Source: Paraphysoderma sedebokerense
Lineage: Eukaryota > Blastocladiomycota > Physodermatomycetes > Physodermatales > Physodermataceae
Length of the DNA: 64,000 nucleotides
Direction of reading: 5' to 3'
Assembly: GCA_025602915.1 (NCBI GenBank)
Contig: JAHLJZ010000004.1
Span: forward strand, 558,001-622,000
Made by a program: the position numbers and the translations under genes. The notes below the pieces were generated by a model that saw nothing but the letters and a program-made list of their open reading frames with translations, searched no databases and had not been told where the DNA came from. This document shows, one piece after another, positions 28,905 to 62,348 of this stretch. Positions within the stretch are counted from its first letter, which is position 1, and each line of letters opens with the position of its first letter.

Positions 28905-31900
28905 TTACAATTTCAGATCGACCTTTCCCTTCGTTGCGCTTTTTACAATTTCTCGTATAGTCGCCCAGGATATCACTTTAAAACTGGCGTACTCTTGAGC
29001 TTTTAACACCCTTCCATTCATGTCCAGGCCATTCTCAAACTCGTCAACCGTTTTGTTTTTGAAGTCAACATCTTTGATATTTTGACCAGAATTCACATCG
29101 TCATGCACCACAAAAATCCCTTCCTTGAAGCGGCCGATACTAGCACTGGTAGTGACCAAAGAATCCGTTCTAGTAACTTCATCCAAATACTGTCCAGTTG
29201 CAGGGTCGATAACTCCACCTACGCGGATCGAAGCGAGAAATTTCCAAGGATAATTGCGATCATAAATGTTGTAAGTATTTGAGCCTTGAGATGAAGCAAC
29301 TATAAAGCCCGATGTTTTAGAAACTCTTGAATTATTCCGTTTTATCGGTATGTAAAGCGAGATTCCTTCGACATCACGAGTAAGATGGCCACTAGAATGG
29401 ACATGACTTGTTGCATCAATAAGGGACGGTAGTGCCTTGGAACCAAGCGGAAGAGCGGAAGAAAGCGCTATAGTATCGGTTGGATTGGCACCGTACGACC
29501 AAATCTGATAAAACACTAAGCATTAGAACGGTTCGGAAATATAGAGAAATGGATATCATTTACCCCAACAGATTCTTCACCGATGAATAAGATTTCATTT
29601 TCTGAATCTGCAACGCAGTTTTCTAACTGACTACCCATACCAACGGTAAAGTTTCTGGCGGAATACAGTGTTGAAACAAATCCTTGTCCTGATTTTTGGA
29701 TTGTTAATCGAAATTGGAAGATTCGGCCTTTCTTTGTCGTAATAAAAACGTATTTGTTGGAGGATGAGAGAGGGGAGTAAATACATGATCCGTAGATTTC
29801 TAATATGCTATCGTCAAATTCATGAACTTGGAGAGGAGCTAAAATTGGGATGTATGATGATGTATTTGCTAACGAAGGATTCCTCGAGTTTGTTTCGATT
29901 GCCGAGGGGATGATTTGCCTGGATTCACTATCAGCACAGTAACTGAAAAAATAAATGACTATTCTTAAAAACTCACCAAACACCAATGCCATTGGTTTTA
30001 CCCCTAATTCCACCAATAGCGACGTCCACCTTTTCATTCGTTCCTTCGATGACGATGTCGTAAATCACGTCTACCGAATTTACGCCACTACCATTCCCAA
30101 CAGGTTGAAACCATAGCTCTTTCCCCTCGACATCCCAAACGTGAATGCCCCCGTCCAATTTTGATTTAGTCGTTCCAAGAATTACCGAATAATTCGGATC
30201 GGTAGGATGGACATAAACTTCGGGATCATCGTTGTCTATAGCGGAATTTTTAGACAGCTCAGAAGGGATAAGAGAAACGTTCGAAGGTACGGATATGTGG
30301 GAGCAGCTATCGCCATAGAAGGGCGAATTGCATTTACACTGTATCCGCGTGAAGTTAGACTAATTATTTTCTATGCTAAGAACGGAAAATAGGAACCTTA
30401 TTCGCCCCAACGCAATGCCCTCGGCCTTCTGCTTCTCCACATTTATCAACTGCATTGCAGTTGAACTTATCACATTCTTTTCCACCAAAACCAGAGAAGC
30501 AACTACACTTCCCTCGAATACAATAGCCATTCCATGAACAAAAATCGTCGTCATCTTCTGGATCATCCTCACATACGTATGGGCCAACATTTCGATGTTC
30601 AAGGGAATAGGGAGACATGACAGTATTTCGGAGTGAAGAAAATACAAGTTCGGTAGTTAATGCAGACAGAATGTATCGCAAATCGTACAACTTGTAATCC
30701 CGTGTTTTCAACTCCTTATTTTTGGCAACAAGAGCGAAGATACCGGACGAGAAGGATGAAACCGGTTTAGGAAGGGACAGGATTTGTAATGAGTCAATCT
30801 TGCCCGAAACGCCTGGTAAATTAATAACAGATAAAAATTTCCAGTCCCCAGTCTCAATATCTCGATATATTGCGACAAAATTGCCGTGATTACTGTCGAC
30901 ATTTAGAATTGTAAAGAGGGACTGTGTCTTAGTTTCACGAATCTGCACAAATGACCGCAAGCTATGACCAATTTTGTTCGTTCCAAATATTTTAGAGTGA
31001 GTAAGCGGTGGCGATGTGAGAGATAGGGTGGACGTTGAGAATATATTTCGAACAACGGCATCGGACGTAGGAGATGGGAAACTGAAAAAGTAAAAATGAC
31101 CTAAATCGGTCGAGACGTAAAATGAATTTGAAAGATCCGGATCCACGCTGCATGCTTTGGCTGATTCGTAAGGACTTTGCAAGGGAAATCGAAATGATCG
31201 GAACTATTTGGAAGTAGACTTAGTGCATCAGAATCACCATGAAAAACGTAAGGAGTTGAATTTAAACCTTGACAAATTCGATATGTTCATTGCGTTTATC
31301 ACGGTTCTGTCTGACAATGAATATATGCACCATCCCTCCTTTCATGAACTCAAGGAGGAATCTTTCACCATGGCGATCTACTCCTCCGCACACAGCGCTG
31401 ACATCCCCATCAGCTAATTTGGGACTGCCCGGTGACACCGCGGTGAACCCCTTTGAGGAAGCATCAAACACATGAAACCGGTTCTGTTGGTTTGAATGAG
31501 CCAGTAATATTGTCGAGTTTCCCTGTCCGAATGAGACGGATGCAATATACTTTGTCCTCCCTAGTCGCACGTTCCCAACCTCTTGATTTCCCAGTACATC
31601 AAACAAGCTGACACCTCCAGTGACTTCTCCATTCGTTGTAGCAACTAACAATTTCTCATCATCTAAGATTAATTCCATTCCATAACCTGCAGGTTTCGAA
31701 AATTCGATGACTTGATGTGAATTTGGACGGGGCAGCCGTATTATCGACTGAACGGCACCAATGATTGATTCGAGAGACTGGGGGTTGTGAGTTTCAGGAA
31801 ATCGTCTCAACGATAAAACTATGATTAGAATGACCAGAAATGAAAATATAGCGGGAAACGTCCATTTTATCACTGATTTCCTCCGCCGTACTGATTTAAA

Positions 31901-32020
31901 AGAGGGCTGAATTGGCGTATCATCATTTCGGTTGGGATTATCTTGTAACGGAATGTACACAGAGTCCGAATCCAGATGCTCCTTCCACTTTCTTATTTTC
32001 AACTTTAGCGATGTCATCAA
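28905..32020 (-). CDS. Type II membrane beta-propeller phytase A, propeller-EGF-propeller (full length)
   Basis: Exons: 32020-31268, 31203-30397, 30338-29977, 29918-29564 and 29504-28905, giving 958 aa. A short cytosolic tail with RRRK is followed by one transmembrane helix (about 51-71), so the rest is extracellular. A first, divergent propeller-like part is followed by an EGF-like segment (CSWNGYCIRGKCSCFSGFGG ... CVGANKCKCNSPFYGDSC), then a complete 3-phytase domain. Phytase motifs: DNDDPEVYVHPTDP, GGIHVWDVEGKE, FITTKKGRIFQF, ENCVADSENEILFIGEES, LTRDVEGISLY and VASSQGSNTYNIYDR. Known enzymes of this fold are calcium-dependent and remove phosphates from inositol phosphates. Most catalytic acids and Lys are present, but the NxVDxR motif reads NSVDVIY. 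The gene crosses the left edge of the repeat, so only this copy has the true C-terminus. Confidence 0.88.
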
Positions 32021-32615
32021 TTAAATTAAAAGCAGATATTGGGTATGCGATGCTGTCTGGCGTGAGGGGCTGTGGGTGACAGTGGAAATCTTTGGATGCG
32101 GAAACAGGTACTGAATGCGGTTGTAACCGAGTCCCAAATTTTGAAAGCTGTTTCAGGTACTATAAAATTTGAGGTTTTGAGAAATAAAGTTTGCTGGTAA
32201 TGGTTACTGCGGTCGCTAGGTGCATCCAAGTCTCGTGAATGAGTGCTAAATTTTAATAGAAAAGCGGCTGAATAAATTTAACGACAATCGCTTGATTGTG
32301 ACGACATTTAATTGAATCAAGGCGACTCTGGGCTTGAAACTTCTGGTTGCCTCTGTTAGAACAGCTCCTTTTTTCAGCCGAGGAAGTTTTTGATCCGGGA
32401 AATGTGCTTGAATTGAACAATAAAGTTGTCTCAAGCCTCTGGATTGTTACACCGAAATTTCGGCCCCTCAAAGCACTGCCACTGTGCATCATGTTGGCTT
32501 TTTCTGGAAATAACTGATGTCATTTCCATGCAGCGATATTTTTAAGATTTTGATATATATATTTAGATGTACTTCATAAAAGTCATCAAAACGTCTTATG
32601 GCAGGAGGTTCAATG
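32021..32615. other. Intergenic region between phytase A start and phytase B stop
   Basis: 595 bp containing the promoter of phytase A and the 3' flank of phytase B (both minus). Small open frames on minus have no family features. Nothing else seen. The copy-2 equivalent is 48,519-49,113. Confidence 0.55.
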
Positions 32616-35600
32616 TTACCAACTTTGTAATACGACTCTATTATTCGTGGCATTCTTCACTGCTTCCACAATTGACCGCCAAGAGACAACTTTAAAACTA
32701 TTATACTCTTTAGCTTTTATCACCTCCCCATTATTGTCTACAGCATTTTCAAATGTTTCTGCTGTTTTTGGTTCAAGTTCCACGTCTTTAATGTTTTGCC
32801 CAGTATTACAATCATCATGCAATACCAACGCGCCTTCCTTGTACTTGCCGATTTGACCGGCAAATGCAGCTAATGAATCAGTTGCAGTGACTTCATCTAT
32901 GTATTCACCACTTGTCGTATTGATAAATCCTCCTATTCGTATACTCGCTAAAAATTCCCAAGGATGAACTCGATTGTAAATGTTGATGCTATTTGATCCT
33001 TGGGCTGAAACGATAATGTAACCTAAACGATTGTTATTGGGTGAACTATACATAGCTAAACCTTCCACATCACGGGTAAGGTGGCCGCTTGGTTTTATAT
33101 GTACGGTTGTATCAATCAGAGTTGGAAGGTACTTGGATCGAACAGGTAACGGAGACAAAGTCATTACTGTCGACGGGTCACCCGAGTTCGCCCCATATGC
33201 CCAAACCTACCAATCAAAGATGTTTGTCAAACCAGTCGCCGCAAAGAATAGAGGGAAGAAATTGTCCGGGTATATGTACGCACCCCAACAGATTCTTCTC
33301 CAACGTAGAGAATTTCGTTAACAGAATCTGCTACGCAATTTTCTAATTGACTTTTCAAGCCAATGGTAAAATTCCGGGACTGGTTTAATTCAGGTCTCAG
33401 AATATCATTTTCCTTCCTTATGCGCAACTCAAATTGAAACAATTCCCCCTTTTTAGTTGTAACAATAATGTACTTTTTGGACGAAGAATGGGGGGAGTAT
33501 ATGCAAGAACCGTATATACTAATTGACTTGTCATCGAAATCAATGGGTGAGGCTATCGGTGTAATGATAGGGGCGTAAGAAGATACTGAGCTATTCTTCG
33601 GGAGTGCAGAATTTTGAATGATCGCATTGGGGTGGATTTGCCTATGAATTTTGAAGTTTGCTTTTAATTCAGATATTCAAGTGCGGTAACACTCATCGTC
33701 CTAACTCACCAAACACCTATAGCATTCATATGACCGCGAACTCCTGCTACCACAACGTCAATAGTTTCATTACTGTCTTGAATTGGTACACCATACAAAA
33801 CGTCAACCGAGTTAACACCATTACCGACTCCGCCACTTTCAAACCATATCTCTTCTCCATCTGCATTCCAAATATGAATACCGTTACCACCATCCCTTGC
33901 TTTAGTTGATCCAATGAAAACGGAATAATTTGGGTCACTGGGATGACGGTATACTGCTGCATCATCGTTATCGTTTGCAGAGAAATTTGATAGAAACGAG
34001 GGAACGAGGGCATCGTCGGCTGGTACTAGAATATGTGAACATGATTCACCGGTATAGGGGGGAGTACATCTACACTGAGATATATGGATAATAAATCATC
34101 AATATAGCTTATAACTAAACCAGACATGGTGAAAACAATTTTGAAGTCAACTTACTATATTAGGCCCGACGCATTCGCCTTTTCCATCATTACCGCGACA
34201 ATTCGACATTGCTTTACATTCATAATTCTGACAAGTATCACCATAAAACCCCCCAAAACAATGACAAACACTATCTTTACAATATCCATTCCGTGAACAA
34301 TTTTTCACCTCGTTCGTTTCAGATTGACAATTATACGGATTCAATATATCAGTTCCGGTATTCTCAAAATTGGGCGGGAACGACGGTGCCGAAAGAGTCG
34401 TCAAATTTAAAGAGATCGAGAACGGAAGTATGTGGTTTAAATCGTACAGCCTTATTTCTTGGATATGTCGTGTTTTGGTTTTCGTGACAATGGATAGTAC
34501 TCCACCACCAAACCGCGTCGTGTTTTGATGTGGAAAGAAGACATTTAACGTGTACGTTTTTCCTTTGAGCCCGGGTAAACTAACGCCGGTTAAATATTTC
34601 CAAGAATTTGTACTTCTATCGTGATAAATTGAAGCTAATTCTCCTTTTCCACCAATCTTGAAGAGCACAATGACGCTGCTAGTGGTTTGTTCTAATAACG
34701 CGATAAAACTGGGTATACTTTTGCCTTTAACTGAGCTGCTGTGGACTTTGCTATGAGAAGATAATGTAGTAGAATCAAGTAATGTGGAGGTAGAAAATAT
34801 GCGTGTGATAATTGGGTCTGCAGTTGGTAGTGGAATCGACAATTTATAAAAATGACCATGATGAGTCGTTATGATGAAGGACATGGCCGCCGTAGAATCG
34901 AGTTTACAATCGGTAATTGAATCTGCGACATGATATAACGTTATGTTGGGTGTAGCATACTAATCAACGATATTGAAAAAAAACCGATCAAAGTGTCAGA
35001 CATTTGTACCATTTCTTCCCAAAATGATCTACCCAAAAATAAAATCATTACCTTTACAAACTCAAACGTCGTTCCATTTTCGCTCCCACTAACTTTCTTT
35101 ACTGTTCTAACAATATAAATACTCAATCTCCCATCCTTCATAAAATACCCTACCACATTTTCCCCATTCTTATCCCGTCCTCCACACAACGCTCCTGCAT
35201 CACCTTCATCCAATTTCGGCCGCTCATTCAAAACAGGCACTAACTCCCCACCCGTGACTTTAAACATATGCAATCGATGTTGTAAACTCGAATAAGCAAT
35301 CACCAAATCTACCGATTCAAATTTGTTGTCACCATTCAACACTGAAACTGATAACTGGGTGAACAGTTTCGTTCGACCGATTCGTTTTTTAGATACGTCG
35401 GTTACACTGTTCTTTTCATCCGATAAATCAATATCAATTAATTCTATTCCACCGGTTGACTGACTATCAGTGACCACCATTTTCAACTTTTTTCCATTCA
35501 ATTTCGAATCATGAATAAACTCGATCCCGTAACCGGCTTTACGTTCAAACGAGATCATTTGGGTATCCACCGGTTCGGGTAACTGATGATACGATTTCAA

Positions 35601-35855
35601 ATCATGTAAAGTCAAAGCAAGCGATGAATTTTTCGTACCGACAACGAAAAATGATAAAATAAATAAAATAAAGATAGTCAAGACGAAACTAACAAGACAT
35701 AGTACGATTGATTTTTTGGGTCGGTGTCGTAAAATGTCATTGGGTCGGTCGGTTTCGTTGTCGTGATGGATATCTTCGTCTCGTAGGTTGGATATTTCTT
35801 GTAACTCGACCGTATCGGAAAGAATGGTGTACGCTCTTCGTCGAAATACGTCCAT
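32616..35855 (-). CDS. Type II membrane beta-propeller phytase B, paralogue of A
   Basis: Exons: 35855-35052, 34959-34156, 34074-33710, 33641-33284 and 33206-32616, giving 973 aa. The plan matches phytase A: a cytosolic tail with HRPKK, a transmembrane helix at about 50-72 (VLCLVSFVLTIFILFILSFF), a divergent N-terminal propeller part, an EGF-like segment (CSRNGYCKDSVCHCFGGFYG ... CRCTPPYTGESC), then a full phytase domain. Motifs: DNDDAAVYRHPSDP, GIHIWNADGEEIWF, VTTKKGELFQFEL, ENCVADSVNEILYVGEES, LTRDVEGLAMY and VSAQGSNSINIYNR. All four introns sit at positions equivalent to those in A, so A and B arose by gene duplication, but the proteins are clearly diverged. The NxVDxR Arg is again replaced (NSVDVLY). 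The substrate could be phytate or other cell-surface inositol phosphates; activity is inferred. Confidence 0.88.
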
Positions 35856-36334
35856 GGGGTTTGTGACTGGTGGGTAATCTGTTTAGAGTACAAGTTCCAG
35901 TGGCCCAAGGACTGAATGAGAAAACAATAAAAGAGGCGAAGGATTTACATTAAATGACAAGTATTAACGAAGGAGTGTTCAGTCGAAGGATATCATGACA
36001 TTTTTTTCATAAATGGTAAGCGCAAGATGTAACGTCGGACTTTCTTGCGCACCAACACATGCAGTCATGCACCCAAGGAAACCTCATTTGGACGCGCCAG
36101 AGAACATATTCAACAAAGAATCAATATATGCCTGGTTCTACCTAGAATAACTGTTATATTTTATATTCTTTTAAATGCCATCAATCTTTACAAAATCAAA
36201 AAAGCCATTCTAAACGGTTAAATTAAATACAAATGTCGCTTACAATAACACATAATAATTCTGTCCATTGAACTTTCACTGTTTTATCGTAGCAAATAAA
36301 AAATAACAAAGATTGGCAAGAAAGGCGCATTTTT
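35856..36334. other. Intergenic region upstream of phytase B
   Basis: About 480 bp between the phytase B start and the KEX1-like stop. AT-rich; contains the phytase B promoter. No gene or RNA seen. The copy-2 equivalent is 52,354-52,832. Confidence 0.5.
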
Positions 36335-39300
36335 CTACCTCCTTCTAGATTGATTAGTATTCGGATCAATAGGTTGATAATCTCTTTCAGCATCAAACAC
36401 TACCGCTTCTTCATCGTCGTGTAAAAATTCGTCCCTAACGTCATCCGAAACAGAAAAGTAAATTAACGGCATCTCCATTATTTCTCCGCAAAACAGCAAC
36501 TTTTTTCGTGGAAAAAAAAGTAATCAGATACGACGGAAGCGCAACTTACATTTCATGTTCTCTTCCTTGCCTAACCAATCGGTCTGTAACCTCGGCGTCA
36601 CGATGTTTCATACTCCTTAATTTCATTTTCTTTCTTAAATGAAGTGTCCCGAGCACTGCAACGAATAATACAACCACAACTAACGCCCCGGTACCGCTAC
36701 ATGCATTCCAAACAAGTAAAGCGTGTCAATACCAGTTAACGATGTCCAAATAAACGACGTCACTTACGCTCCGTAATAATAATCTTTCTTCGTCTGTGGA
36801 GTAGTCGGTATCGTTCCGTCCAAAGATACACCGTCGGTAGGGGAAGGAGTTGACGTAAGAGATTGAGCCGCGGTTGTATAGAATGACGTGGTTGAATGAA
36901 TTGTGTTAGTGGATGATGGTGAAGAAAATGTATTGGTAATCTATGAAAGCCAAGTTAGATTACGATGACAATATGGATTTGCAACTTTCAACCAATTTCG
37001 ACAGTTTGGGATAAAGAAAAAAAAAAAAGAATAATAAAAATTGAATACTTACAACAAGACTCCATGAGCTTACCGGCGGCGGGGGAGGCGCAACCTCCTA
37101 TAACGATTGAGCAAAAACAAACAAACATAATGGTGAAAGCCATTAATCACCTCGTCTTTTCCGCTTAACACGAATGAAACAATGAATCAAAGATACAAAC
37201 TTCCCCCATCTGACCATACGCTTCCGATCCTACATATTTTTCTTCCACACCGATCATTCTGTACAGCATAGCTAGAGATCCCGCTGGTTGATCGATCGGT
37301 ACCATGTGAGAAGAATTGTAGAATAACCAGTAAGTTAAATTCCTGGCCGACGTGACATGGGCGATTAGGTTTTTATTCATCGAAAATGCTTGCGATGTGA
37401 CGTTCTAAAGTAACAAAATCAGTTACACCTCGAACTTCAACCAAAAGGTTTCCTCAAGGTTTAACTTACTCCAAATCCCTTGGCACCATTCCACTCCAAA
37501 TTCTCAATCATTCGTTCAGTTCCGATATGGTTACAAATCATGTCCATATCACCACTGAATAAATGAATCGGAACCCCGCTTTTCAATAATTCCGGTAACA
37601 ACTAAACCCAACAGCATTCATTATCAACAAAAGGTTAATCATCGTCGCTGGCTAGTACTTACTATCTAGTAGACAGAATTTACAAACCGTAACGCTAGGA
37701 GGACTACGATCCGCATCCAGTTGCTTAAATACTTCATCATCGCATTCTCTCCATTTCTTAGTTTGATTCGTCGCGTGCAAAAATTTCACAACTTCGGGAT
37801 TCTGAGAAACCAAGTAATCCGTCAATATCGCGCCAGTTTAGCGGCATGAAAAGAGAACAATGAAACCATAAGGTAAGTATAAACCCCTGGTAAATCAAAA
37901 GGCCAACTAGCGCCGCAAACTCCAGAATTATCTGGATCTCTTAATCGGATGTCATAAATATTCATGCAAGCTTGATTTCTACACCCCACAAATAAAAAAT
38001 AAAAAATAAAAACCAGATGAAAATCAATCGTCAGTAACCCCAATTTCGCGTGCAAAAGTGGGCAGAAAACTATAAACTGTACCCAGACTTAGAATAATCA
38101 GTTATTTGATCTACGATTCTCTCGCACGTCAAATCTCTAAGCGAGTTACTGGTCTCATATTTCGATTTGCACGAAGCAGTCAACGTATATGCCGTTTCCT
38201 AACAAGAATCCAGAAGTTGCCCATTAGCTAATGCATAATCTAATCATAATAAGAGCAATGTAATTACATTATGAGTACCGCTAAGTAACTTGTGCTTCGC
38301 CGCATACTCTATGTAGGCAGGATACTATTCATAAAATAGGTATAAGTACCTCAGCCTTATTGTCAAAACTTGAAACTAAGTTTTTAAGAATACTACCTGA
38401 TTTTTAGGATCGATCCAGCCATTTCCGATCGCAATGCCTGATAAATTCCACTAAAGTAATATACATCCAAAATATATAAGTTTAGTCTGTAACAAATAGA
38501 TTTAACAATGAAAAAAATCGTACCTTTAATTTTGTATGACTATCGGTAAACGTTTCATTGATTTCTTTATTCCGTTTCAATATCTCGGTGGCGATATAAG
38601 GAATGTAAATTCCTGCAAACGATTCCCCCGTGAAATAAACCTATATCAATGTTGTCTTGATTAGCAATAGCACACAAGTAACGACAACAGTCCGGCCACT
38701 TCAATATAAGAAGGGACACGAGAAATGAAAAGAAACAAGTACATCGCTATACTGCAAGTCTGGGAATATGTCAAAGAATTTCTCTAGGAAGGCAACAAAT
38801 TGAGTTCCAACTTCTGTTTGAGAGGTTGCCAGCGGTCCGTTCGTATACGAGAATCCGGTACCAACGGGTTGATCCACTACATGAAGTCAAAGAAAAGGAA
38901 CAATAACCACGAAAGAGAGTCAGACATGACATGCTGATACAGTAAAAAGAGAGATGACACGAAACATACCGTATAACATATTCGCATGGTGATGCCAACT
39001 ATGCGGATTGATCCGAGGCTTGCCCGCTTTGTCAAGCAACATTGGTCCATTTTCAAGTAAAAGTCCTTCAATACTTTGTAAATGACCAGAAAAGTTAGGC
39101 TACTCTTTGCTGTCAAATTGGATTCTGAGAAAAGAAACTATGCGCGTTTTCGAAGTTTACCTGGAACTATGAATTTAAAGGAATCAAGACCCAAAGAAGG
39201 AAATTTGTCAATACATAGAAATATGCCACATGTCGATACATTTTGATTAAAGATACTACTAAAATGAAGAATAAAACTCTTACCATCCTGGTCCACCGTT

Positions 39301-39938
39301 TAACCAAATGACCTACAATTCGATTGAACAGGCACCAAGAGAAACGATAAAACGAAAGAGGACAGAGTTAATTCTAACAATCAAACGCCCAATACTTTGA
39401 ACAGAACAAAAATTCTTTAATTTCATATTCCGACACTTCAACGCTTTACATCTTTGTCGTCGCCTTCGCACGGAATAATGAGGGTCCACGAACCCAAAAT
39501 AAAAAGTAAAAGGCCAACCAAGTAGACGGAACGAAAGGAAACAAACCAATTTCTGTCTCTCCGTCACCAACTTATGATTTTTTACTAGCCAGAAAAATAT
39601 GTTGGAATCTGTTGCACTATTGATGTTGATATGGCCGGCATAGTTTCTGAATGGATGCGGGTGGGGTAGGTCAGGCAAGTCGTGGATGAAATAGTTTGTT
39701 GCTACAAAGCGGGAATTTAGAAGCGACGATGATTGTGCGGTAAACAAAGTCAGTTAAGAGAAGGAGAGAGGGGTCGAGAAAATAGTGGAAAAGAAGAGGG
39801 GAAAAGAATGTTACCGCAACCAGCGTCGTTCCGTTTTCTGAGCGTAGCGGCCGAGGAGGAGGGGAATGGATGGAGGAGGGACAGCAGGATGAGGAGATGC
39901 AGCAGGGCGGCCTTGACAAGGGACAGAGGGTGCGGCAT
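36335..39938 (-). CDS. KEX1: Kex1-type serine carboxypeptidase, membrane-anchored (copy 1)
   Basis: Eighteen exons give 640 aa: 39938-39815, 39701-39547, 39312-39284, 39166-39161 (6 nt), 39073-38970, 38876-38743, 38640-38524, 38450-38397, 38324-38268, 38198-38083, 37978-37867, 37801-37688, 37601-37470, 37404-37201, 37097-37053, 36940-36768, 36696-36550 and 36434-36335. A signal peptide is followed by the S10 peptidase domain: NGGPGCSS, GESFAG with the nucleophile Ser, SGDMDMICN with the Asp, and [10 protein letters not shown] with the His. Then come a Pro run, a Ser/Thr-rich stalk, a transmembrane helix ([14 protein letters not shown]) and an acidic cytosolic tail. That is the layout of Kex1, which trims C-terminal Lys/Arg from secreted peptides in the trans-Golgi. 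In-frame ATGs upstream (39968, 39983) are possible starts; 39938 has A at -3 and gives the cleanest signal peptide. Confidence 0.9.
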
Positions 39939-40439
39939 CTTGTGTGGTTCTCCCCTCGCAATGGCCATGAAGATATAGATCAATCGCTGTCGCCGAGTGT
40001 GTTGTCTGTATCAGGTATGTATCTGCTGTCCAACTGCTTGCAATGGGCCGACCGTTCCCTCTCTCGCGGACACGCCGTGCCTTCTGCTGTCCTTGCCTTC
40101 TTCCTCATCTGCCAACTACCATATCATGCACTTACATCATATTCTAATTCCATATCAAGCAAGGAGAATATCAAAACTTGACGGAAGTACGATAGTACGC
40201 TAATCTAATCCAGGGCAAGTTGATCTTGCAGCTTTAACTTGTATCACTGCCAACAATTATAAAAACTCAAGTTCACCGTTTATTATGAACTCGTATCTTT
40301 CACTTTACAAGTGTATTAATGATACTCGATCCCACAACAGAAAATATCACTTATCAACTAATTATAAATTGCTTTTAACATGCTCTTTCTTCTTCCTACA
40401 AAAATACTCTACCTCTGAGCCAACGTAGTCACAAGACGC
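39939..40439. other. Intergenic region upstream of KEX1
   Basis: About 500 bp between the KEX1 start and the thiolase stop (both minus); contains the KEX1 promoter and the thiolase 3' flank. Plus-strand open frames here are GC-rich readings of leader DNA. Nothing else seen. The copy-2 equivalent is 56,437-56,937. Confidence 0.5.
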
Positions 40440-45468: not shown

Positions 45469-45636
45469 AAGATTGAAGGGGGCTAAAATTGGTTGGACTT
45501 GATTTCATTCGGTTTTGAAAAATAAATGGAAGGAACCAGACAGGCATAATTTCATGTAGTGATTGTTCGTGTTGGTTCAACGATAAAATAGCTTTAAAAT
45601 ATGATGATTAACCACACCGAAACATTTTTTGTATTC

Positions 45637-48518: not shown

Positions 48519-49113
48519 TTAAATTAAAAGCAGATATTGGGTATGCGATGCTGTCTGGCGTGAGGGGCTGTGGGTGACAGTGGAAATCTTTGGATGCGGA
48601 AACAGGTACTGAATGCGGTTGTAACCGAGTCCCAAATTTTGAAAGCTGTTTCAGGTACTATAAAATTTGAGGTTTTGAGAAATAAAGTTTGCTGGTAATG
48701 GTTACTGCGGTCGCTAGGTGCATCCAAGTCTCGTGAATGAGTGCTAAATTTTAATAGAAAAGCGGCTGAATAAATTTAACGACAATCGCTTGATTGTGAC
48801 GACATTTAATTGAATCAAGGCGACTCTGGGCTTGAAACTTCTGGTTGCCTCTGTTAGAACAGCTCCTTTTTTCAGCCGAGGAAGTTTTTGATCCGGGAAA
48901 TGTGCTTGAATTGAACAATAAAGTTGTCTCAAGCCTCTGGATTGTTACACCGAAATTTCGGCCCCTCAAAGCACTGCCACTGTGCATCATGTTGGCTTTT
49001 TCTGGAAATAACTGATGTCATTTCCATGCAGCGATATTTTTAAGATTTTGATATATATATTTAGATGTACTTCATAAAAGTCATCAAAACGTCTTATGGC
49101 AGGAGGTTCAATG
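48519..49113. other. Intergenic region, copy 2 (phytase A promoter / phytase B 3' flank)
   Basis: Exact copy of 32,021-32,615; nothing further seen. Confidence 0.5.
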
Positions 49114-52100
49114 TTACCAACTTTGTAATACGACTCTATTATTCGTGGCATTCTTCACTGCTTCCACAATTGACCGCCAAGAGACAACTTTAAAACTATT
49201 ATACTCTTTAGCTTTTATCACCTCCCCATTATTGTCTACAGCATTTTCAAATGTTTCTGCTGTTTTTGGTTCAAGTTCCACGTCTTTAATGTTTTGCCCA
49301 GTATTACAATCATCATGCAATACCAACGCGCCTTCCTTGTACTTGCCGATTTGACCGGCAAATGCAGCTAATGAATCAGTTGCAGTGACTTCATCTATGT
49401 ATTCACCACTTGTCGTATTGATAAATCCTCCTATTCGTATACTCGCTAAAAATTCCCAAGGATGAACTCGATTGTAAATGTTGATGCTATTTGATCCTTG
49501 GGCTGAAACGATAATGTAACCTAAACGATTGTTATTGGGTGAACTATACATAGCTAAACCTTCCACATCACGGGTAAGGTGGCCGCTTGGTTTTATATGT
49601 ACGGTTGTATCAATCAGAGTTGGAAGGTACTTGGATCGAACAGGTAACGGAGACAAAGTCATTACTGTCGACGGGTCACCCGAGTTCGCCCCATATGCCC
49701 AAACCTACCAATCAAAGATGTTTGTCAAACCAGTCGCCGCAAAGAATAGAGGGAAGAAATTGTCCGGGTATATGTACGCACCCCAACAGATTCTTCTCCA
49801 ACGTAGAGAATTTCGTTAACAGAATCTGCTACGCAATTTTCTAATTGACTTTTCAAGCCAATGGTAAAATTCCGGGACTGGTTTAATTCAGGTCTCAGAA
49901 TATCATTTTCCTTCCTTATGCGCAACTCAAATTGAAACAATTCCCCCTTTTTAGTTGTAACAATAATGTACTTTTTGGACGAAGAATGGGGGGAGTATAT
50001 GCAAGAACCGTATATACTAATTGACTTGTCATCGAAATCAATGGGTGAGGCTATCGGTGTAATGATAGGGGCGTAAGAAGATACTGAGCTATTCTTCGGG
50101 AGTGCAGAATTTTGAATGATCGCATTGGGGTGGATTTGCCTATGAATTTTGAAGTTTGCTTTTAATTCAGATATTCAAGTGCGGTAACACTCATCGTCCT
50201 AACTCACCAAACACCTATAGCATTCATATGACCGCGAACTCCTGCTACCACAACGTCAATAGTTTCATTACTGTCTTGAATTGGTACACCATACAAAACG
50301 TCAACCGAGTTAACACCATTACCGACTCCGCCACTTTCAAACCATATCTCTTCTCCATCTGCATTCCAAATATGAATACCGTTACCACCATCCCTTGCTT
50401 TAGTTGATCCAATGAAAACGGAATAATTTGGGTCACTGGGATGACGGTATACTGCTGCATCATCGTTATCGTTTGCAGAGAAATTTGATAGAAACGAGGG
50501 AACGAGGGCATCGTCGGCTGGTACTAGAATATGTGAACATGATTCACCGGTATAGGGGGGAGTACATCTACACTGAGATATATGGATAATAAATCATCAA
50601 TATAGCTTATAACTAAACCAGACATGGTGAAAACAATTTTGAAGTCAACTTACTATATTAGGCCCGACGCATTCGCCTTTTCCATCATTACCGCGACAAT
50701 TCGACATTGCTTTACATTCATAATTCTGACAAGTATCACCATAAAACCCCCCAAAACAATGACAAACACTATCTTTACAATATCCATTCCGTGAACAATT
50801 TTTCACCTCGTTCGTTTCAGATTGACAATTATACGGATTCAATATATCAGTTCCGGTATTCTCAAAATTGGGCGGGAACGACGGTGCCGAAAGAGTCGTC
50901 AAATTTAAAGAGATCGAGAACGGAAGTATGTGGTTTAAATCGTACAGCCTTATTTCTTGGATATGTCGTGTTTTGGTTTTCGTGACAATGGATAGTACTC
51001 CACCACCAAACCGCGTCGTGTTTTGATGTGGAAAGAAGACATTTAACGTGTACGTTTTTCCTTTGAGCCCGGGTAAACTAACGCCGGTTAAATATTTCCA
51101 AGAATTTGTACTTCTATCGTGATAAATTGAAGCTAATTCTCCTTTTCCACCAATCTTGAAGAGCACAATGACGCTGCTAGTGGTTTGTTCTAATAACGCG
51201 ATAAAACTGGGTATACTTTTGCCTTTAACTGAGCTGCTGTGGACTTTGCTATGAGAAGATAATGTAGTAGAATCAAGTAATGTGGAGGTAGAAAATATGC
51301 GTGTGATAATTGGGTCTGCAGTTGGTAGTGGAATCGACAATTTATAAAAATGACCATGATGAGTCGTTATGATGAAGGACATGGCCGCCGTAGAATCGAG
51401 TTTACAATCGGTAATTGAATCTGCGACATGATATAACGTTATGTTGGGTGTAGCATACTAATCAACGATATTGAAAAAAAACCGATCAAAGTGTCAGACA
51501 TTTGTACCATTTCTTCCCAAAATGATCTACCCAAAAATAAAATCATTACCTTTACAAACTCAAACGTCGTTCCATTTTCGCTCCCACTAACTTTCTTTAC
51601 TGTTCTAACAATATAAATACTCAATCTCCCATCCTTCATAAAATACCCTACCACATTTTCCCCATTCTTATCCCGTCCTCCACACAACGCTCCTGCATCA
51701 CCTTCATCCAATTTCGGCCGCTCATTCAAAACAGGCACTAACTCCCCACCCGTGACTTTAAACATATGCAATCGATGTTGTAAACTCGAATAAGCAATCA
51801 CCAAATCTACCGATTCAAATTTGTTGTCACCATTCAACACTGAAACTGATAACTGGGTGAACAGTTTCGTTCGACCGATTCGTTTTTTAGATACGTCGGT
51901 TACACTGTTCTTTTCATCCGATAAATCAATATCAATTAATTCTATTCCACCGGTTGACTGACTATCAGTGACCACCATTTTCAACTTTTTTCCATTCAAT
52001 TTCGAATCATGAATAAACTCGATCCCGTAACCGGCTTTACGTTCAAACGAGATCATTTGGGTATCCACCGGTTCGGGTAACTGATGATACGATTTCAAAT

Positions 52101-52353
52101 CATGTAAAGTCAAAGCAAGCGATGAATTTTTCGTACCGACAACGAAAAATGATAAAATAAATAAAATAAAGATAGTCAAGACGAAACTAACAAGACATAG
52201 TACGATTGATTTTTTGGGTCGGTGTCGTAAAATGTCATTGGGTCGGTCGGTTTCGTTGTCGTGATGGATATCTTCGTCTCGTAGGTTGGATATTTCTTGT
52301 AACTCGACCGTATCGGAAAGAATGGTGTACGCTCTTCGTCGAAATACGTCCAT
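49114..52353 (-). CDS. Type II membrane beta-propeller phytase B (copy 2)
   Basis: Exons: 52353-51550, 51457-50654, 50572-50208, 50139-49782 and 49704-49114, giving 973 aa. No difference from the copy at 32,616-35,855 was seen, including the introns. Unlike phytase A of this copy, the gene is complete with its own flanks, so the duplication would double its dosage. Confidence 0.88.
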
Positions 52354-52832
52354 GGGGTTTGTGACTGGTGGGTAATCTGTTTAGAGTACAAGTTCCAGTG
52401 GCCCAAGGACTGAATGAGAAAACAATAAAAGAGGCGAAGGATTTACATTAAATGACAAGTATTAACGAAGGAGTGTTCAGTCGAAGGATATCATGACATT
52501 TTTTTCATAAATGGTAAGCGCAAGATGTAACGTCGGACTTTCTTGCGCACCAACACATGCAGTCATGCACCCAAGGAAACCTCATTTGGACGCGCCAGAG
52601 AACATATTCAACAAAGAATCAATATATGCCTGGTTCTACCTAGAATAACTGTTATATTTTATATTCTTTTAAATGCCATCAATCTTTACAAAATCAAAAA
52701 AGCCATTCTAAACGGTTAAATTAAATACAAATGTCGCTTACAATAACACATAATAATTCTGTCCATTGAACTTTCACTGTTTTATCGTAGCAAATAAAAA
52801 ATAACAAAGATTGGCAAGAAAGGCGCATTTTT
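52354..52832. other. Intergenic region, copy 2 (phytase B promoter)
   Basis: Exact copy of 35,856-36,334; nothing further seen. Confidence 0.5.
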
Positions 52833-55800
52833 CTACCTCCTTCTAGATTGATTAGTATTCGGATCAATAGGTTGATAATCTCTTTCAGCATCAAACACTA
52901 CCGCTTCTTCATCGTCGTGTAAAAATTCGTCCCTAACGTCATCCGAAACAGAAAAGTAAATTAACGGCATCTCCATTATTTCTCCGCAAAACAGCAACTT
53001 TTTTCGTGGAAAAAAAAGTAATCAGATACGACGGAAGCGCAACTTACATTTCATGTTCTCTTCCTTGCCTAACCAATCGGTCTGTAACCTCGGCGTCACG
53101 ATGTTTCATACTCCTTAATTTCATTTTCTTTCTTAAATGAAGTGTCCCGAGCACTGCAACGAATAATACAACCACAACTAACGCCCCGGTACCGCTACAT
53201 GCATTCCAAACAAGTAAAGCGTGTCAATACCAGTTAACGATGTCCAAATAAACGACGTCACTTACGCTCCGTAATAATAATCTTTCTTCGTCTGTGGAGT
53301 AGTCGGTATCGTTCCGTCCAAAGATACACCGTCGGTAGGGGAAGGAGTTGACGTAAGAGATTGAGCCGCGGTTGTATAGAATGACGTGGTTGAATGAATT
53401 GTGTTAGTGGATGATGGTGAAGAAAATGTATTGGTAATCTATGAAAGCCAAGTTAGATTACGATGACAATATGGATTTGCAACTTTCAACCAATTTCGAC
53501 AGTTTGGGATAAAGAAAAAAAAAAAAGAATAATAAAAATTGAATACTTACAACAAGACTCCATGAGCTTACCGGCGGCGGGGGAGGCGCAACCTCCTATA
53601 ACGATTGAGCAAAAACAAACAAACATAATGGTGAAAGCCATTAATCACCTCGTCTTTTCCGCTTAACACGAATGAAACAATGAATCAAAGATACAAACTT
53701 CCCCCATCTGACCATACGCTTCCGATCCTACATATTTTTCTTCCACACCGATCATTCTGTACAGCATAGCTAGAGATCCCGCTGGTTGATCGATCGGTAC
53801 CATGTGAGAAGAATTGTAGAATAACCAGTAAGTTAAATTCCTGGCCGACGTGACATGGGCGATTAGGTTTTTATTCATCGAAAATGCTTGCGATGTGACG
53901 TTCTAAAGTAACAAAATCAGTTACACCTCGAACTTCAACCAAAAGGTTTCCTCAAGGTTTAACTTACTCCAAATCCCTTGGCACCATTCCACTCCAAATT
54001 CTCAATCATTCGTTCAGTTCCGATATGGTTACAAATCATGTCCATATCACCACTGAATAAATGAATCGGAACCCCGCTTTTCAATAATTCCGGTAACAAC
54101 TAAACCCAACAGCATTCATTATCAACAAAAGGTTAATCATCGTCGCTGGCTAGTACTTACTATCTAGTAGACAGAATTTACAAACCGTAACGCTAGGAGG
54201 ACTACGATCCGCATCCAGTTGCTTAAATACTTCATCATCGCATTCTCTCCATTTCTTAGTTTGATTCGTCGCGTGCAAAAATTTCACAACTTCGGGATTC
54301 TGAGAAACCAAGTAATCCGTCAATATCGCGCCAGTTTAGCGGCATGAAAAGAGAACAATGAAACCATAAGGTAAGTATAAACCCCTGGTAAATCAAAAGG
54401 CCAACTAGCGCCGCAAACTCCAGAATTATCTGGATCTCTTAATCGGATGTCATAAATATTCATGCAAGCTTGATTTCTACACCCCACAAATAAAAAATAA
54501 AAAATAAAAACCAGATGAAAATCAATCGTCAGTAACCCCAATTTCGCGTGCAAAAGTGGGCAGAAAACTATAAACTGTACCCAGACTTAGAATAATCAGT
54601 TATTTGATCTACGATTCTCTCGCACGTCAAATCTCTAAGCGAGTTACTGGTCTCATATTTCGATTTGCACGAAGCAGTCAACGTATATGCCGTTTCCTAA
54701 CAAGAATCCAGAAGTTGCCCATTAGCTAATGCATAATCTAATCATAATAAGAGCAATGTAATTACATTATGAGTACCGCTAAGTAACTTGTGCTTCGCCG
54801 CATACTCTATGTAGGCAGGATACTATTCATAAAATAGGTATAAGTACCTCAGCCTTATTGTCAAAACTTGAAACTAAGTTTTTAAGAATACTACCTGATT
54901 TTTAGGATCGATCCAGCCATTTCCGATCGCAATGCCTGATAAATTCCACTAAAGTAATATACATCCAAAATATATAAGTTTAGTCTGTAACAAATAGATT
55001 TAACAATGAAAAAAATCGTACCTTTAATTTTGTATGACTATCGGTAAACGTTTCATTGATTTCTTTATTCCGTTTCAATATCTCGGTGGCGATATAAGGA
55101 ATGTAAATTCCTGCAAACGATTCCCCCGTGAAATAAACCTATATCAATGTTGTCTTGATTAGCAATAGCACACAAGTAACGACAACAGTCCGGCCACTTC
55201 AATATAAGAAGGGACACGAGAAATGAAAAGAAACAAGTACATCGCTATACTGCAAGTCTGGGAATATGTCAAAGAATTTCTCTAGGAAGGCAACAAATTG
55301 AGTTCCAACTTCTGTTTGAGAGGTTGCCAGCGGTCCGTTCGTATACGAGAATCCGGTACCAACGGGTTGATCCACTACATGAAGTCAAAGAAAAGGAACA
55401 ATAACCACGAAAGAGAGTCAGACATGACATGCTGATACAGTAAAAAGAGAGATGACACGAAACATACCGTATAACATATTCGCATGGTGATGCCAACTAT
55501 GCGGATTGATCCGAGGCTTGCCCGCTTTGTCAAGCAACATTGGTCCATTTTCAAGTAAAAGTCCTTCAATACTTTGTAAATGACCAGAAAAGTTAGGCTA
55601 CTCTTTGCTGTCAAATTGGATTCTGAGAAAAGAAACTATGCGCGTTTTCGAAGTTTACCTGGAACTATGAATTTAAAGGAATCAAGACCCAAAGAAGGAA
55701 ATTTGTCAATACATAGAAATATGCCACATGTCGATACATTTTGATTAAAGATACTACTAAAATGAAGAATAAAACTCTTACCATCCTGGTCCACCGTTTA

Positions 55801-56436
55801 ACCAAATGACCTACAATTCGATTGAACAGGCACCAAGAGAAACGATAAAACGAAAGAGGACAGAGTTAATTCTAACAATCAAACGCCCAATACTTTGAAC
55901 AGAACAAAAATTCTTTAATTTCATATTCCGACACTTCAACGCTTTACATCTTTGTCGTCGCCTTCGCACGGAATAATGAGGGTCCACGAACCCAAAATAA
56001 AAAGTAAAAGGCCAACCAAGTAGACGGAACGAAAGGAAACAAACCAATTTCTGTCTCTCCGTCACCAACTTATGATTTTTTACTAGCCAGAAAAATATGT
56101 TGGAATCTGTTGCACTATTGATGTTGATATGGCCGGCATAGTTTCTGAATGGATGCGGGTGGGGTAGGTCAGGCAAGTCGTGGATGAAATAGTTTGTTGC
56201 TACAAAGCGGGAATTTAGAAGCGACGATGATTGTGCGGTAAACAAAGTCAGTTAAGAGAAGGAGAGAGGGGTCGAGAAAATAGTGGAAAAGAAGAGGGGA
56301 AAAGAATGTTACCGCAACCAGCGTCGTTCCGTTTTCTGAGCGTAGCGGCCGAGGAGGAGGGGAATGGATGGAGGAGGGACAGCAGGATGAGGAGATGCAG
56401 CAGGGCGGCCTTGACAAGGGACAGAGGGTGCGGCAT
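52833..56436 (-). CDS. KEX1: Kex1-type serine carboxypeptidase, membrane-anchored (copy 2)
   Basis: Same 18-exon structure as copy 1 shifted by 16,498: first exon 56436-56313, 6-nt exon 55664-55659, last exon 52932-52833; 640 aa. The S10 catalytic motifs, stalk, transmembrane helix and tail are identical to copy 1. Both flanks are intact, so it should be as functional as copy 1. Confidence 0.9.
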
Positions 56437-56937
56437 CTTGTGTGGTTCTCCCCTCGCAATGGCCATGAAGATATAGATCAATCGCTGTCGCCGAGTGTGT
56501 TGTCTGTATCAGGTATGTATCTGCTGTCCAACTGCTTGCAATGGGCCGACCGTTCCCTCTCTCGCGGACACGCCGTGCCTTCTGCTGTCCTTGCCTTCTT
56601 CCTCATCTGCCAACTACCATATCATGCACTTACATCATATTCTAATTCCATATCAAGCAAGGAGAATATCAAAACTTGACGGAAGTACGATAGTACGCTA
56701 ATCTAATCCAGGGCAAGTTGATCTTGCAGCTTTAACTTGTATCACTGCCAACAATTATAAAAACTCAAGTTCACCGTTTATTATGAACTCGTATCTTTCA
56801 CTTTACAAGTGTATTAATGATACTCGATCCCACAACAGAAAATATCACTTATCAACTAATTATAAATTGCTTTTAACATGCTCTTTCTTCTTCCTACAAA
56901 AATACTCTACCTCTGAGCCAACGTAGTCACAAGACGC
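56437..56937. other. Intergenic region, copy 2 (KEX1 promoter / thiolase 3' flank)
   Basis: Exact copy of 39,939-40,439; nothing further seen. Confidence 0.5.
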
Positions 56938-58948
56938 TTACTCGCGGACAATAACAGCTGTAGAAAAAGAATTGAACTTGTTAACTTTCGTCCTCTAACT
57001 TTACGAATTCTCAATAAACAATACAAACCAGCTGCACCCATACCGGTACCGATACACTATTTACAAATGAATCAAATATTCACAGTTAGAATACCATACT
57101 CTCAAACCAAGAAGCGACTAAATACGACATACCATACTGCACACACCGATCTTTTTGTTTTGTCTCTTCAATTCAGGCAAGAGTGTGGCAATTTGTCTAG
57201 CGCCAGTACATCCCAAAGGATGACCCAAAGCAATGGCACCACCCTTGGGGTTCACCTTTTCAATTGGAATACCCAACTTTTCAATACTGTACACAGCTTG
57301 GGAAGCGAACGCTTCGTTGATTTCATAGACATCCACATCGTTAACTGAAATACCAGCTTTCTTCAAAGCTTCGGGAATAGCGTAGGCAGGACCGACACCT
57401 AGACAAAAGATGAACAGAAGGTTAGTTTTCTTGCCGGTCTTCTGTTAGTGATGAAAGAAGCGAGAACGAACCCATAATTTTGGGGGGTACACCGACAACC
57501 GCGAAGTTGACGAATTTACCGATAATGGGCATGTTGAGTCTTTGGGCAACGCTTCGTCTCATCAACAAGACGGCGGCAGCACCATCCGATACTTGTGAGG
57601 CATTACCAGCGGTAGTGGTACCGGTTTTGCTGAAAGCGGGTTTCAATTTCGATAGACCTTCTAGAGTGGTATTGGCACGGACACCGTCGTCTTTCTTGAT
57701 TGTGACCTTCTTTTCGTTTCCTTCGGCATCAACCCAAATGGTATCTACTGGAACAATCTCAGAATCAAAGAGACCTTGAGCCTGAGCCTTGGCGGCCTTT
57801 TGGTGGGAAATCACGGCAAGTTGATCTTGCTTCTTGCGGTCCACGCTATATTGAGCAGCAACATTCTCTGAAGTGATACTGAAAATGTTTGCAAAGGAGA
57901 CACACAAATCATGTCAAACTGTGCACAACAGGGGAATACAAAACCACAATATAAGTGTACATACCCCATGGGTAACAGACAATCGGCGGCGGGTTGGAAG
58001 GCGGTGACTTTGTCGGATGTGCTCTGGGGCATGGCAACAGGGCCATAGTTCATAGTCATGGATTCAACACCAGCACCTACAGGTAGTTTGTTCATTAGAC
58101 AAGTGAACATCAAAAGGCAATCATGAGAGAAAAACGGTTCGAGCCATACCGATACCAACATCGATCATTCCTGCCTGGATTTCGTGTGCGATGGTAGCGA
58201 CGGCCTGGAGACCAGAAGAGCACTGACGGTTGACTGTGGAGATGGCTGTGGTATCGGGGAAGCTAATGCAACGCATCTAAGAGTCAGGACTATCGCCATA
58301 TGCTCAAAAGATAAATCATTTCATACTTACCCCGCGTACAAAGCGGACATTCTGGCAACGGTAGCACCGCCACCCGGAGGCAAGACGTTTCCGACTTGAA
58401 TATCTTGAACCAGAGCTGGGTTAAGTCCAGTTCTTTCAATGGTGGCCTTAAGAACAGCAGCGAGCATCTCTTCTTGGTGAGTGTCTTTCAATCCACCCTT
58501 GCGCGCACGTGTAATTGGTGTTCGGAGGGCACTGTTTACAGGTGAGAGTAATCAGTCAGATTTCTGGTTGGGGACCATAGATATTGAAGCGCGAATTGCG
58601 GAGTCTTACCTAACGATAACGACATCATCAGCGTTCTTGGCCAAGATGTTACCTGTGACGTGGTGGCCCAGATCAACAAGGAAGGAGGACGTCAGCAACA
58701 CATCCATTGGTTCAAGGTCATATATTGTCAAGGACCCAGAAGGGGCCAAGAAAGGACAACAATTCATATTATTCAAAGAATGAGCATTGTGTTGTATTGT
58801 ATTGGAGAAGAGAGGGAATGGATGAATGGACAAGCAGTGCAACAAGAATGCACAAGAAGGAAGGAGGGGGCCACGTACCCTTTGCCGCAGTTGGGTTAGA
58901 GGCCAAGTGAGAGGAGATTTGTTCAATTCTTTTGACTGGAGCGGACAT
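56938..58948 (-). CDS. POT1: Peroxisomal 3-ketoacyl-CoA thiolase with PTS2 (copy 2)
   Basis: Exons: 58948-58879, 58652-58610, 58531-58331, 58262-58150, 58076-57965, 57878-57472, 57398-57133, 57056-57029 and 56957-56938, giving 419 aa. Identical to copy 1, including PTS2 and all three catalytic motifs, with the shared divergent promoter also duplicated. Confidence 0.94.
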
Positions 58949-59665
58949 GATTGTTGTGTGTGAGGGTGAGTGGATGGATATGGTAGTGGAGTGGAGTGGA
59001 GTGGAGTGGAGTGGGAGTGAGGGAATGAGGGTATTTATGAGGGGGAATGGAGTGTCGGCCAATCCCGTGGCAAGTGGAATTCTCTCCTTCTTCTGTCCCA
59101 GCCTGGCACACGTGACTGCTCATTTCGTGCCCTCTCCGCCTGAAAGTCTACCACAGAGGGGAATTGGGTCATATGAAATAATGAATTGATTATTACCGTC
59201 CATTCTGCCGGCACTTCCGCTGTTGCCAATTCCGTCCATTTCCCGCCGCCCCATCCTGCACTCGCGACTCGCCCTTCCTCCCTTCTATTTCCGACAACAG
59301 GCAATACCCATGCTCTACTATTGTCCGGGTACAATCACATTCGTTTCTCTTGTCTTTGGTTATTGTAACTCTCTGTATATAATAGACCTTTGACTACATA
59401 TATGAATAATATTTGATTACTGGCTATTGTATATGTGAGCAATCGACAAATTAGCTCCACTTTTAGTACCGATACGACTGAACAAAAGGAGAGATCATGG
59501 CGTGGCTGACGAACACCTCCCATCTTAATTTGTTGAATAGAGTTACCACACAGTTACCACCGCCGCTTTCATCCTCCATCCTTGTGTCGACATCATACAC
59601 TCTACCGACTACATATCTCACGTTCGAATGCTCTGAGATCTTACCACCACGTCTCCTCATTCAAA
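58949..59665. promoter_or_regulatory. Shared promoter region thiolase / spermidine-synthase-like (copy 2)
   Basis: Exact copy of 42,451-43,167, including the pentamer tract. Confidence 0.6.
58986..59013 (-). repeat. GTGGA/TCCAC pentamer tract upstream of thiolase (copy 2)
   Basis: Same number of pentamers as in copy 1. Simple repeats change length quickly, so equal length supports a very recent origin or an artefact. Confidence 0.8.
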
Positions 59666-61966
59666 ATGGCCGCTTCTCCTCGCAATAGAAAAAGGAACCA
59701 ACAAAACAACTCGAAATCTCAATCATCAAGCTCGACTTCCACTGATCAATCCTCCCCTCAGAAGCAATCTCCTCAAAAATCAGATAGGCCGTCCGAGCCT
59801 TCCTCTACGACTCCGTCAATCCTTCGTCATCCAGTCTTCCTCCTTGTTGTTCCTGTATTCCTTTTAGCAACACACATCACTATCCTTCTCGAAGTTGCTC
59901 CGAAATGTGCTGAACCTTTCTTTGGCAACGTCCTTTCGCATACTTACTTTCCTCTGGTTGCAGTCGGAGCACTGATATTAGGATGGATGGCTGTAAGAGT
60001 CTATTCCACTCGAAAATTCAAAAAAATCACCCCGCAATCCTTGTATGATTTGGCTCAACTCGGTATTTCTTGCTCGTGTCTTATCGCCCTGTTTTTCGCT
60101 GCTTCTCCAAATATATGGGATGTAGCGTTCGATGTCGCGTCCGATGTGGGTAAAAAATACGACGGACAGTTGGGTGCGCTAACCTTTCATGGTTTTGTGG
60201 CTTTTCCCGTCATGTTTTTGAGTGGGTTAACGCTGGGAGTGTTACCATACGCTACCTTGAAATTGAATGCCGATATGGACGATCAAAAGCTTCACTTTTT
60301 GTACGCAAGGGTGACAGTACCTTGCCTATGGTACATTACGTCCTTCATGATTCGTTTCGGTCTTGAAAAGGTGGAAATTCGTGCCTATGAAATCATTGTG
60401 TTGATGTCTCTGTCAATTTCGTTCTTGGCTGTACTTGCTTCCGTCCTTTACGCACCGCCGCCTTCTCGTAAGCGACAATTCCGTCTGGCTATAGTGGTCG
60501 TCATTGTTGCGCTCGCAACAAACAACTTGTTGAATCACCCGCACGTACAAAGAGGTGTGGTTCAGGTTTGTTGTCTCGGCCTCTCTGCTTTCATCGAACT
60601 TGGATCTTTTTATTAAACCTTCTATTTGTTTTTGTTTTCTACTTGCGTCGATTTTGTGGTTTCGTGGTTCGCAAATTAGAGTCTACACAATCCGCCAACC
60701 GAGACCGTCTACAAAATTATAGACAGAGCCGAATCCAACACTGGCTTCATCAGCGTCTTTGAAGAATCCACCCGTAAAATTCGCATCCTTCGTGCGGGAC
60801 ATAGTGTTATCGGTGGTATGTTCACCAATACCAACGACTCTGTATATGCAGGGTTCTACTTCCACGAAGCTGTTCGCCTAATTAAACGTCCGTCGAGGTT
60901 GCATCTCGCTCCTGGAACAGATGAAAAGGGATTGAATATCGGGTTAGGGATAGGTGTGGCGGCCTCGTCTTTAATACAACATGGCGTTGACATGGATATT
61001 GTAGAAATTGATCCACAAGTGGTTAATTTCGCAAGAGATTATTTTGGGCTGGATACTGTGAAGGGTCACGTTTTTGTTCAAGATGGTAGAGACTTTGTGG
61101 AAACTTCACAACTTGGAGTTTACGACTATGTGATTCATGATGTGTTTACTGGCGGATCATTGCCTAAGAGTCTTTTCAGTTTTGAAGTGTTGCTCAGAAT
61201 TAGACAAATCTTGAAACGAGACGGCGTGTTGTCCGTGGTGCGTCATCAATTGATATCTCAACTCTTTCATTAATTTACCTCCCATGTTATTCTTACGCCT
61301 AATTTCTTTTTTTTTCAAGAACTTTGTCGGAGAGGGAGGTTCCCGTGCTTTTGACGCTGTCACAAAAACCCTTGCTTACGTATTTCCCTACGTAACATGC
61401 TACCGCGAAGAGACAGGAGGAAAAGAAGAGCATCTTCATAATTATGTAAGTTTTTCTATACCCACTGTTATAATTGATATGCGCACCTTGCGCCTCTCTC
61501 TCTCTTTCTTTCCTTTACATCCATTCATCCCAGTTATGGAATCCACTAACCGAACTTTCACTTGTTTATATTTAATCTCACCCTCCAGGTTTTCTTTGCG
61601 TCATCTCACCCCATCCAATTCCGTCCCGCCACCGAATCTGATATCCTCGGTTCAGACTGGCGTTGGTTCGCCTTCTCAAACCTTCAAAAATGGGAAGTCA
61701 ATCTATCTTCCATTCTCTCTTCCCCTTCCACTATCCGCGCTCCGTCCGTTCAATCGTTATCAGACGAAGAATACAATGTTTTAGCACAAAATAACTTTGA
61801 ATTGGTGAAACCCAAGGGTAGAGAAAAGAAATTGAAAGATTGGACAGAGGGATTTGTGATTGTGGATGATGATAATCCGTTGGATGACGCGTTGTACCCG
61901 GTTGCTAAAGATCATTGGAGAATTATGAGGGAAGTGTTTGCCGATAAAGTATGGTATAATTTCTAA
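59666..61966 (+). CDS. Spermidine-synthase-like protein with N-terminal membrane domain (copy 2)
   Basis: Exons: 59666-60565, 60680-61237, 61320-61445 and 61589-61966, giving 653 aa. Identical to copy 1. Its downstream flank beyond 62,149 is unique sequence and so represents the ancestral 3' environment of this gene. Confidence 0.85.
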
Positions 61967-62348
61967 AAGATTGAAGGGGGCTAAAATTGGTTGGACTTGA
62001 TTTCATTCGGTTTTGAAAAATAAATGGAAGGAACCAGACAGGCATAATTTCATGTAGTGATTGTTCGTGTTGGTTCAACGATAAAATAGCTTTAAAATAT
62101 GATGATTAACCACACCGAAACATTTTTTGTATTCTTACTTAATCCGTTTTGTTTCACGTTGCAGAGATTCGTTAAAACAATTCTATACCAATATTTATTG
62201 TTTCATTATCGCCATCATTATTCAACAACATTTTAATTATTAGAACAAAACTATAAATAAACAAAAATTCAAGAAAAACCGCTCTATCACTCCTACTCCT
62301 AAATACACCTTAGCCCACCCACCCCCATTCTTACTTCATCCAAGTAAT
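61967..62348. other. Convergent intergenic region at the right end of the repeat
   Basis: About 380 bp between the spermidine-synthase-like stop (plus) and the C1-protein stop (minus). The repeat ends at 62,148 within it. AT-rich, probably both 3' UTRs. Nothing else seen. Confidence 0.55.

Follow-up and report, generated by a model that had tools for sequence, protein, structure and literature searches.

Does the genome of Paraphysoderma sedebokerense, a blastocladiomycete that parasitizes algae, including commercial algae, hold one block of neighboring genes twice in direct succession, or was the second copy created by the assembly? The question is raised by a 64,000-bp stretch of contig C4 (C4:558001-622000; hereafter the window, in which all positions without a contig name are counted), where a unit of 16,498 bp is followed head to tail by an exact second copy of itself. 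C4, 735,244 bp long, is one of 195 contigs in an assembly that totals 27,287,198 bp. We favor, at a rough probability of 0.58, the reading that the second copy is an assembly artefact over the reading that it is a real duplication. What speaks for an artefact is a parallel case of unmerged contig ends in the same assembly (C63 and C72), the read-like length of the unit, and a plain junction without homology between the unit edges. The probabilities behind this and the other readings are judgements and were not computed, with two parts in a hundred left for causes not thought of.

Identity of the two copies

Compared letter by letter, unit copy 1 (29153-45650, forward strand, 16,498 bp) and unit copy 2 (45651-62148, forward strand, 16,498 bp) were equal at 16,498/16,498 positions, as an initial annotation of the window had claimed when it described a perfect tandem duplication. 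The identity run at offset 16,498 spans 29153-45651 (16,499 positions); base 62149 equals base 45651, the shared base being T, and the edges may therefore slide by 1 bp. The same annotation correctly reported that simple repeats and a homopolymer do not differ: the GAGTG array is identical in the two copies (42470-42521 and 58968-59019), and a run of 12 A is common to both (37017-37028 and 53515-53526). At a minimum length of 40 bp (seed 20), the window contains no direct repeat family other than the unit pair. In the local context examined, 264 kb of C4 comprising the window and 100 kb on each side, the longest other exact repeat measures 59 bp and the next blastn pair 748 bp at 82%. Genome queries with 43000-45650, 28000-31500, and 60800-63800, together covering ~5.0 kb of the 16.5-kb unit, detected no third unit copy or haplotig and gave, besides the two window copies, only diverged matches (65-79%); given the share of the unit queried, a partial further copy may lie elsewhere in the genome.

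Complete identity, the 12-A run and the pentamer array included, is as expected if both copies derive from the same molecules. If the consensus error is taken as 1e-5, 72% of pairs of true copies that were read independently would come out without a difference, and perfect identity does not separate an artefact from a real young duplication.

Junction and edges of the unit

The head-to-tail junction (45650/45651) contains no N and no inserted bases and shares 1 bp; it reads TTAATCCGTT up to the joint and TGACCAAAG from the joint onward, and the full 301-bp junction query had one match in the genome. Random position pairs at unit spacing, taken from the window outside the unit, shared 0, 1, and 2 bases in 55%, 28%, and 11% of cases. 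The 1-bp overlap is thus within chance and is no evidence of microhomology. The best alignment of 800 bp around both edges scored 23 on the same strand and 25 in reverse complement, against 200 shuffles (same strand only) with a median score of 22 and their 95% point at 27, and no repeat was found at either unit edge in the window repeat search or the 264-kb blastn. The edges show no homology beyond that of shuffled sequence, and recombination between edge repeats was therefore rejected as an unlikely maker of the duplication. The last gene stops 182 bp short of the right edge, where nothing was seen to be cut; the left edge falls inside the last exon of a phytase-like gene (gene 1, below).

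Unmerged ends elsewhere in the assembly

The assembly was sampled by 4-kb queries from three small contigs, and three pairs of matches with equal scores were examined among many short repeat matches. The query from C195 was single-copy. C72:1-1200 is identical to C63:122873-124072, the last 600 bp of C63 (141176-141775) are identical to C72:18304-18903 exactly in register, and three further 500-bp pairs between the two contigs are identical as well. The five places compared (1,200/1,200, 500/500, 500/500, 500/500, and 600/600) amount to 3,300 of 18,903 positions, none of which differs. By these 3,300 positions, C63:122873-141775 corresponds to C72:1-18903 in an end-on overlap that was left unmerged; the first base of C72 matches inside C63 and the last base of C63 inside C72, and neither contig runs on alone there. 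C63 and C72 may belong together, and if laid end to end they would yield an 18.9-kb tandem duplication, a twin of the structure in the window. The first ~330 bp of C72 are a dispersed repeat with many partial matches elsewhere, which may be the reason that the assembly breaks at that point.

Identical or near-identical stretches of at least 1.4 kb were also found at the end of C1 and near the start of C61, and we count them in favor of an artefact. C1:895667-899947, which encodes a VPS4-like AAA ATPase (recognized by eye), recurs directly at C1:950054-954334, where the contig ends inside the second copy. In the comparison, which covers the first 1,834 bp and the last 600 bp, six differences were found, all within the first 105 bp; none was seen in the remainder of the 1,834-bp alignment, as judged by its bit score, or in the final 600 bp. 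This pattern may reflect a homogenized consensus or conversion; in this assembly, repeats may have been made alike where they lie at a distance from unique sequence. C61:581-2000 is identical to C32:230530-231949, the shared stretch being at least 1,420 bp; when the end of C32 was compared, the match did not reach it in register.

Short dispersed sequences were observed in addition. An element of ~80 bp at 26487-26569 of the window has matches of 81-96% on C9, C171, C140, and C67, all within 2.5 kb of a contig end. About C140:4030-5565 there are dispersed repeats of ~50-250 bp with at least 74 matches (40 of 70 candidates scored); contig starts lie close to several of these matches. Repeats of the C140 type may break this assembly.

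Origin of the second copy

In the artefact that we favor, one stretch of the assembly would end with the 16.5-kb unit and the next would start with the same unit, the overlap being about as long as one long read. If this overlap went unrecognized, the two stretches would be joined directly, with no gap between them. The chromosome would in that case contain a single unit, with all five genes whole, and the cut copy of the phytase gene would not exist. We infer both that the repeat in C4 arose via unmerged ends and that the pipeline has a step that joins them. Redundant unmerged ends are present in the same assembly in the form of C63 and C72, and the unit (16.5 kb) and the C63/C72 overlap (18.9 kb) are similar in length, both being about as long as long reads. 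As given in the available text of Ko et al. 2022 (PMC9516828), PacBio continuous long read data of other species have an N50 read length of ~17 kb, and false duplications are sometimes joined gap-free by wrongly filled sequence. Among the three origins listed in the initial annotation (young duplication, gene conversion, and artefact), the artefact has therefore gained support from C63/C72, in a form other than the one given there as an example.

Several observations weigh against this reading. No N lies between the copies, in the 264 kb around them, or in 56 sampled loci (299,628 bases), and the available text of Ko et al. (PMC9516828) describes a gap between most false duplications, as well as a true allele-specific tandem duplication inside one contig. 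C63 and C72 were not joined, so that the joining step has no example in this assembly, and the unit edges in the window, unlike the start of C72, carry no dispersed repeat. Finally, the sequence shared by C63 and C72 might be a true duplication that blocked the assembler.

A genuine tandem duplication of very recent date, in which a replication accident was followed by end joining or template switching, is the next explanation, possible in our judgement and on balance doubtful. Such a duplication may have reached fixation, or it may be confined to one of two homologues or to a part of the culture, and it would comprise four intact genes and a truncated phytase gene. It accords with a seam that is free of N inside a 735-kb contig and with copies that are direct and head to tail; a novel junction of this kind within a contig would ordinarily rest on one or more reads that contain it. 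The 0 differences in 16,498 bp limit divergence to at most 1.8e-4 (95%), which corresponds to fewer than ~3e5 generations at an assumed mutation rate of 3e-10 per site. In yeast, tandem duplications whose junctions carry nothing more than microhomology have been described (Payen et al. 2008, PMC2518615, as far as its available text goes). The same text, however, gives 5 to 10 bp or microsatellites for the non-homologous class, to which end joining did not contribute, compared with the 1 bp found here, an overlap that 28% of random junctions show. The unit length also resembles that of the unmerged C63/C72 overlap. A young duplication carried by the laboratory isolate that was sequenced, perhaps under selection for phosphate or lipid use during culture and truncating one phytase gene, is accordingly put forward only as a tentative second choice.

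Two further explanations are far less probable. A 16.5-kb extrachromosomal circle existing beside a single chromosomal copy, and opened into the chromosome by the assembler, would result in the same end-to-start junction and perfect identity; nothing specific to a circle was found, no independent sign of one was seen, and among the matches of the three genome queries (~5.0 of 16.5 kb) there was no separate contig carrying the unit, and we regard a circle as very improbable. Slightly less credible still is an old tandem duplication held identical by gene conversion, a process that homogenizes tandem copies: the confinement of the six differences in the C1 repeat to its first 105 bp suits a conversion edge and consensus homogenization alike, whereas the window copies show no difference even at their outermost bases, in introns, homopolymers, or intergenic DNA, and the truncated phytase gene has no damage beyond the cut. 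Unmerged haplotypes placed in tandem, the form of artefact that had been suggested initially, were rejected, since this heterotype class requires allelic differences and 0 were found in 16,498 positions, and no other haplotig appeared in the three queries (~5.0 of 16.5 kb).

Genes of the unit and truncation of a phytase-like gene

The complete beta-propeller phytase-like gene 1 (28905-32017, reverse strand) comprises five exons encoding 957 aa by the splice model, with EGF-like repeats and an N-terminal membrane anchor recognized by eye. It matches PF02333 at 113.3 bits (cut-off 21), from which a phytase function is predicted; this search and the search for relatives used a 965-aa model that runs 8 residues beyond the 957-aa model by a wrongly placed intron edge. 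The last exon is related to Bacillus-type phytases of solved structure (3amr and 1poo). In copy 1 the gene is whole, its end (28905-29152) being located in the left flank. In copy 2 the gene (45637-48515, reverse strand) is cut by the junction: the left edge of the unit cuts the last exon, so copy 2 encodes 875 native residues followed by KRIK and a stop, that is, 879 rather than 957 residues. The 82 C-terminal residues lost include 11 columns that are invariant among the gene 1 protein, the deposited protein P0003, and three Allomyces proteins, and their first part aligns with the Bacillus-type phytases (3amr, 1poo). The deposited gene 1 protein, P0002 (549 aa, two member sequences), begins within the gene and lacks the last exon.

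Beta-propeller phytase-like gene 2 (32616-35855, and 49114-52353 in copy 2, reverse strand) corresponds to P0003, of 973 aa. Genes 1 and 2 are 44% identical over the full alignment and 53% over residues 480-965, and both encode EGF-like repeats and a C-terminal beta-propeller phytase domain, the layout of EGF and phytase parts being the same in Allomyces. The two neighbors are probably old tandem paralogues.

The unit further contains an S10 serine carboxypeptidase gene (KEX1-like; 37165-38886 and 53663-55384, reverse strand; the span of two pieces that match PF00450), a 3-ketoacyl-CoA thiolase gene (40620-42450 and 57118-58948, reverse strand; a Pfam match to PF00108), and a gene for a spermine/spermidine-synthase-like enzyme with a long N-terminal part (43168-45468 and 59666-61966, forward strand; PF01564). 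The description of the unit as a five-gene block is accurate only if the cut phytase gene 1 is counted; four genes are intact. Likewise, the proposed doubling of phytase B dosage applies to the second phytase gene alone, because in copy 2 the first has lost the 82 codons at its end. A real duplication would give intact doubling of four genes, not five: phytase gene 2, the S10 carboxypeptidase, the thiolase, and the spermine/spermidine-synthase-like gene.

Outside the unit, the region 27315-28213 contains a cysteine-containing open reading frame (27619-28002) that had no Pfam match; relatives of the region, with 63-79% DNA identity, lie on C4 at ~107-110 kb, 136 kb, and 543 kb.

Significance

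If the second copy is an artefact, four genes are credited with too many copies in the deposited genome, one gene fragment recorded there has no real counterpart, and overlaps such as C63/C72 would likewise inflate counts in an early fungal genome that is used for comparisons. If it is real, this parasite of commercial algae offers an ordinary and strikingly fresh case of gene amplification. Both readings belong to known kinds: an artefact is no biological feature, and a real copy is an ordinary tandem duplication, remarkable only for its youth. The JEL821 genome was reportedly described by Amses et al. in 2022. That genome paper is mentioned in PMC11888301. The assembly that contains the window is probably the JEL821 assembly. 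A second, independent strain, AZ_ISR, was sequenced as 150-bp Illumina pairs, with 25.43 Mb in 427 contigs (PMC9224648). The titles and abstract openings of the papers found on the species or on early fungi do not mention the locus, no search aimed at its genes having been made.

Comparison with known systems

The window resembles the segmental tandem duplications of yeast that arise by break-induced or microhomology-induced replication, as presented in the available text of PMC2518615, in being a direct head-to-tail copy of a block of genes. The yeast junctions lie in long terminal repeats, microsatellites, or 5-10 bp of homology, whereas the junction here shares 1 bp and is known from the assembly alone. 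The C63/C72 overlap is likewise in register, with 0 differences at the 3,300 positions compared, and similar in length (18,903 versus 16,498 bp); in contrast to the window, it involves two contigs, not a tandem within one, and starts in a dispersed repeat. The false duplications in the available text of Ko et al. (PMC9516828) were recognized mainly by read depth, and the window copies differ from them in having no gap. They share with them the position of neighboring copies of a genic block inside one scaffold, the loss of exons from the gene in one copy, as in some of those cases, and, as in the homotype class of Ko et al., the lack of any allelic difference.

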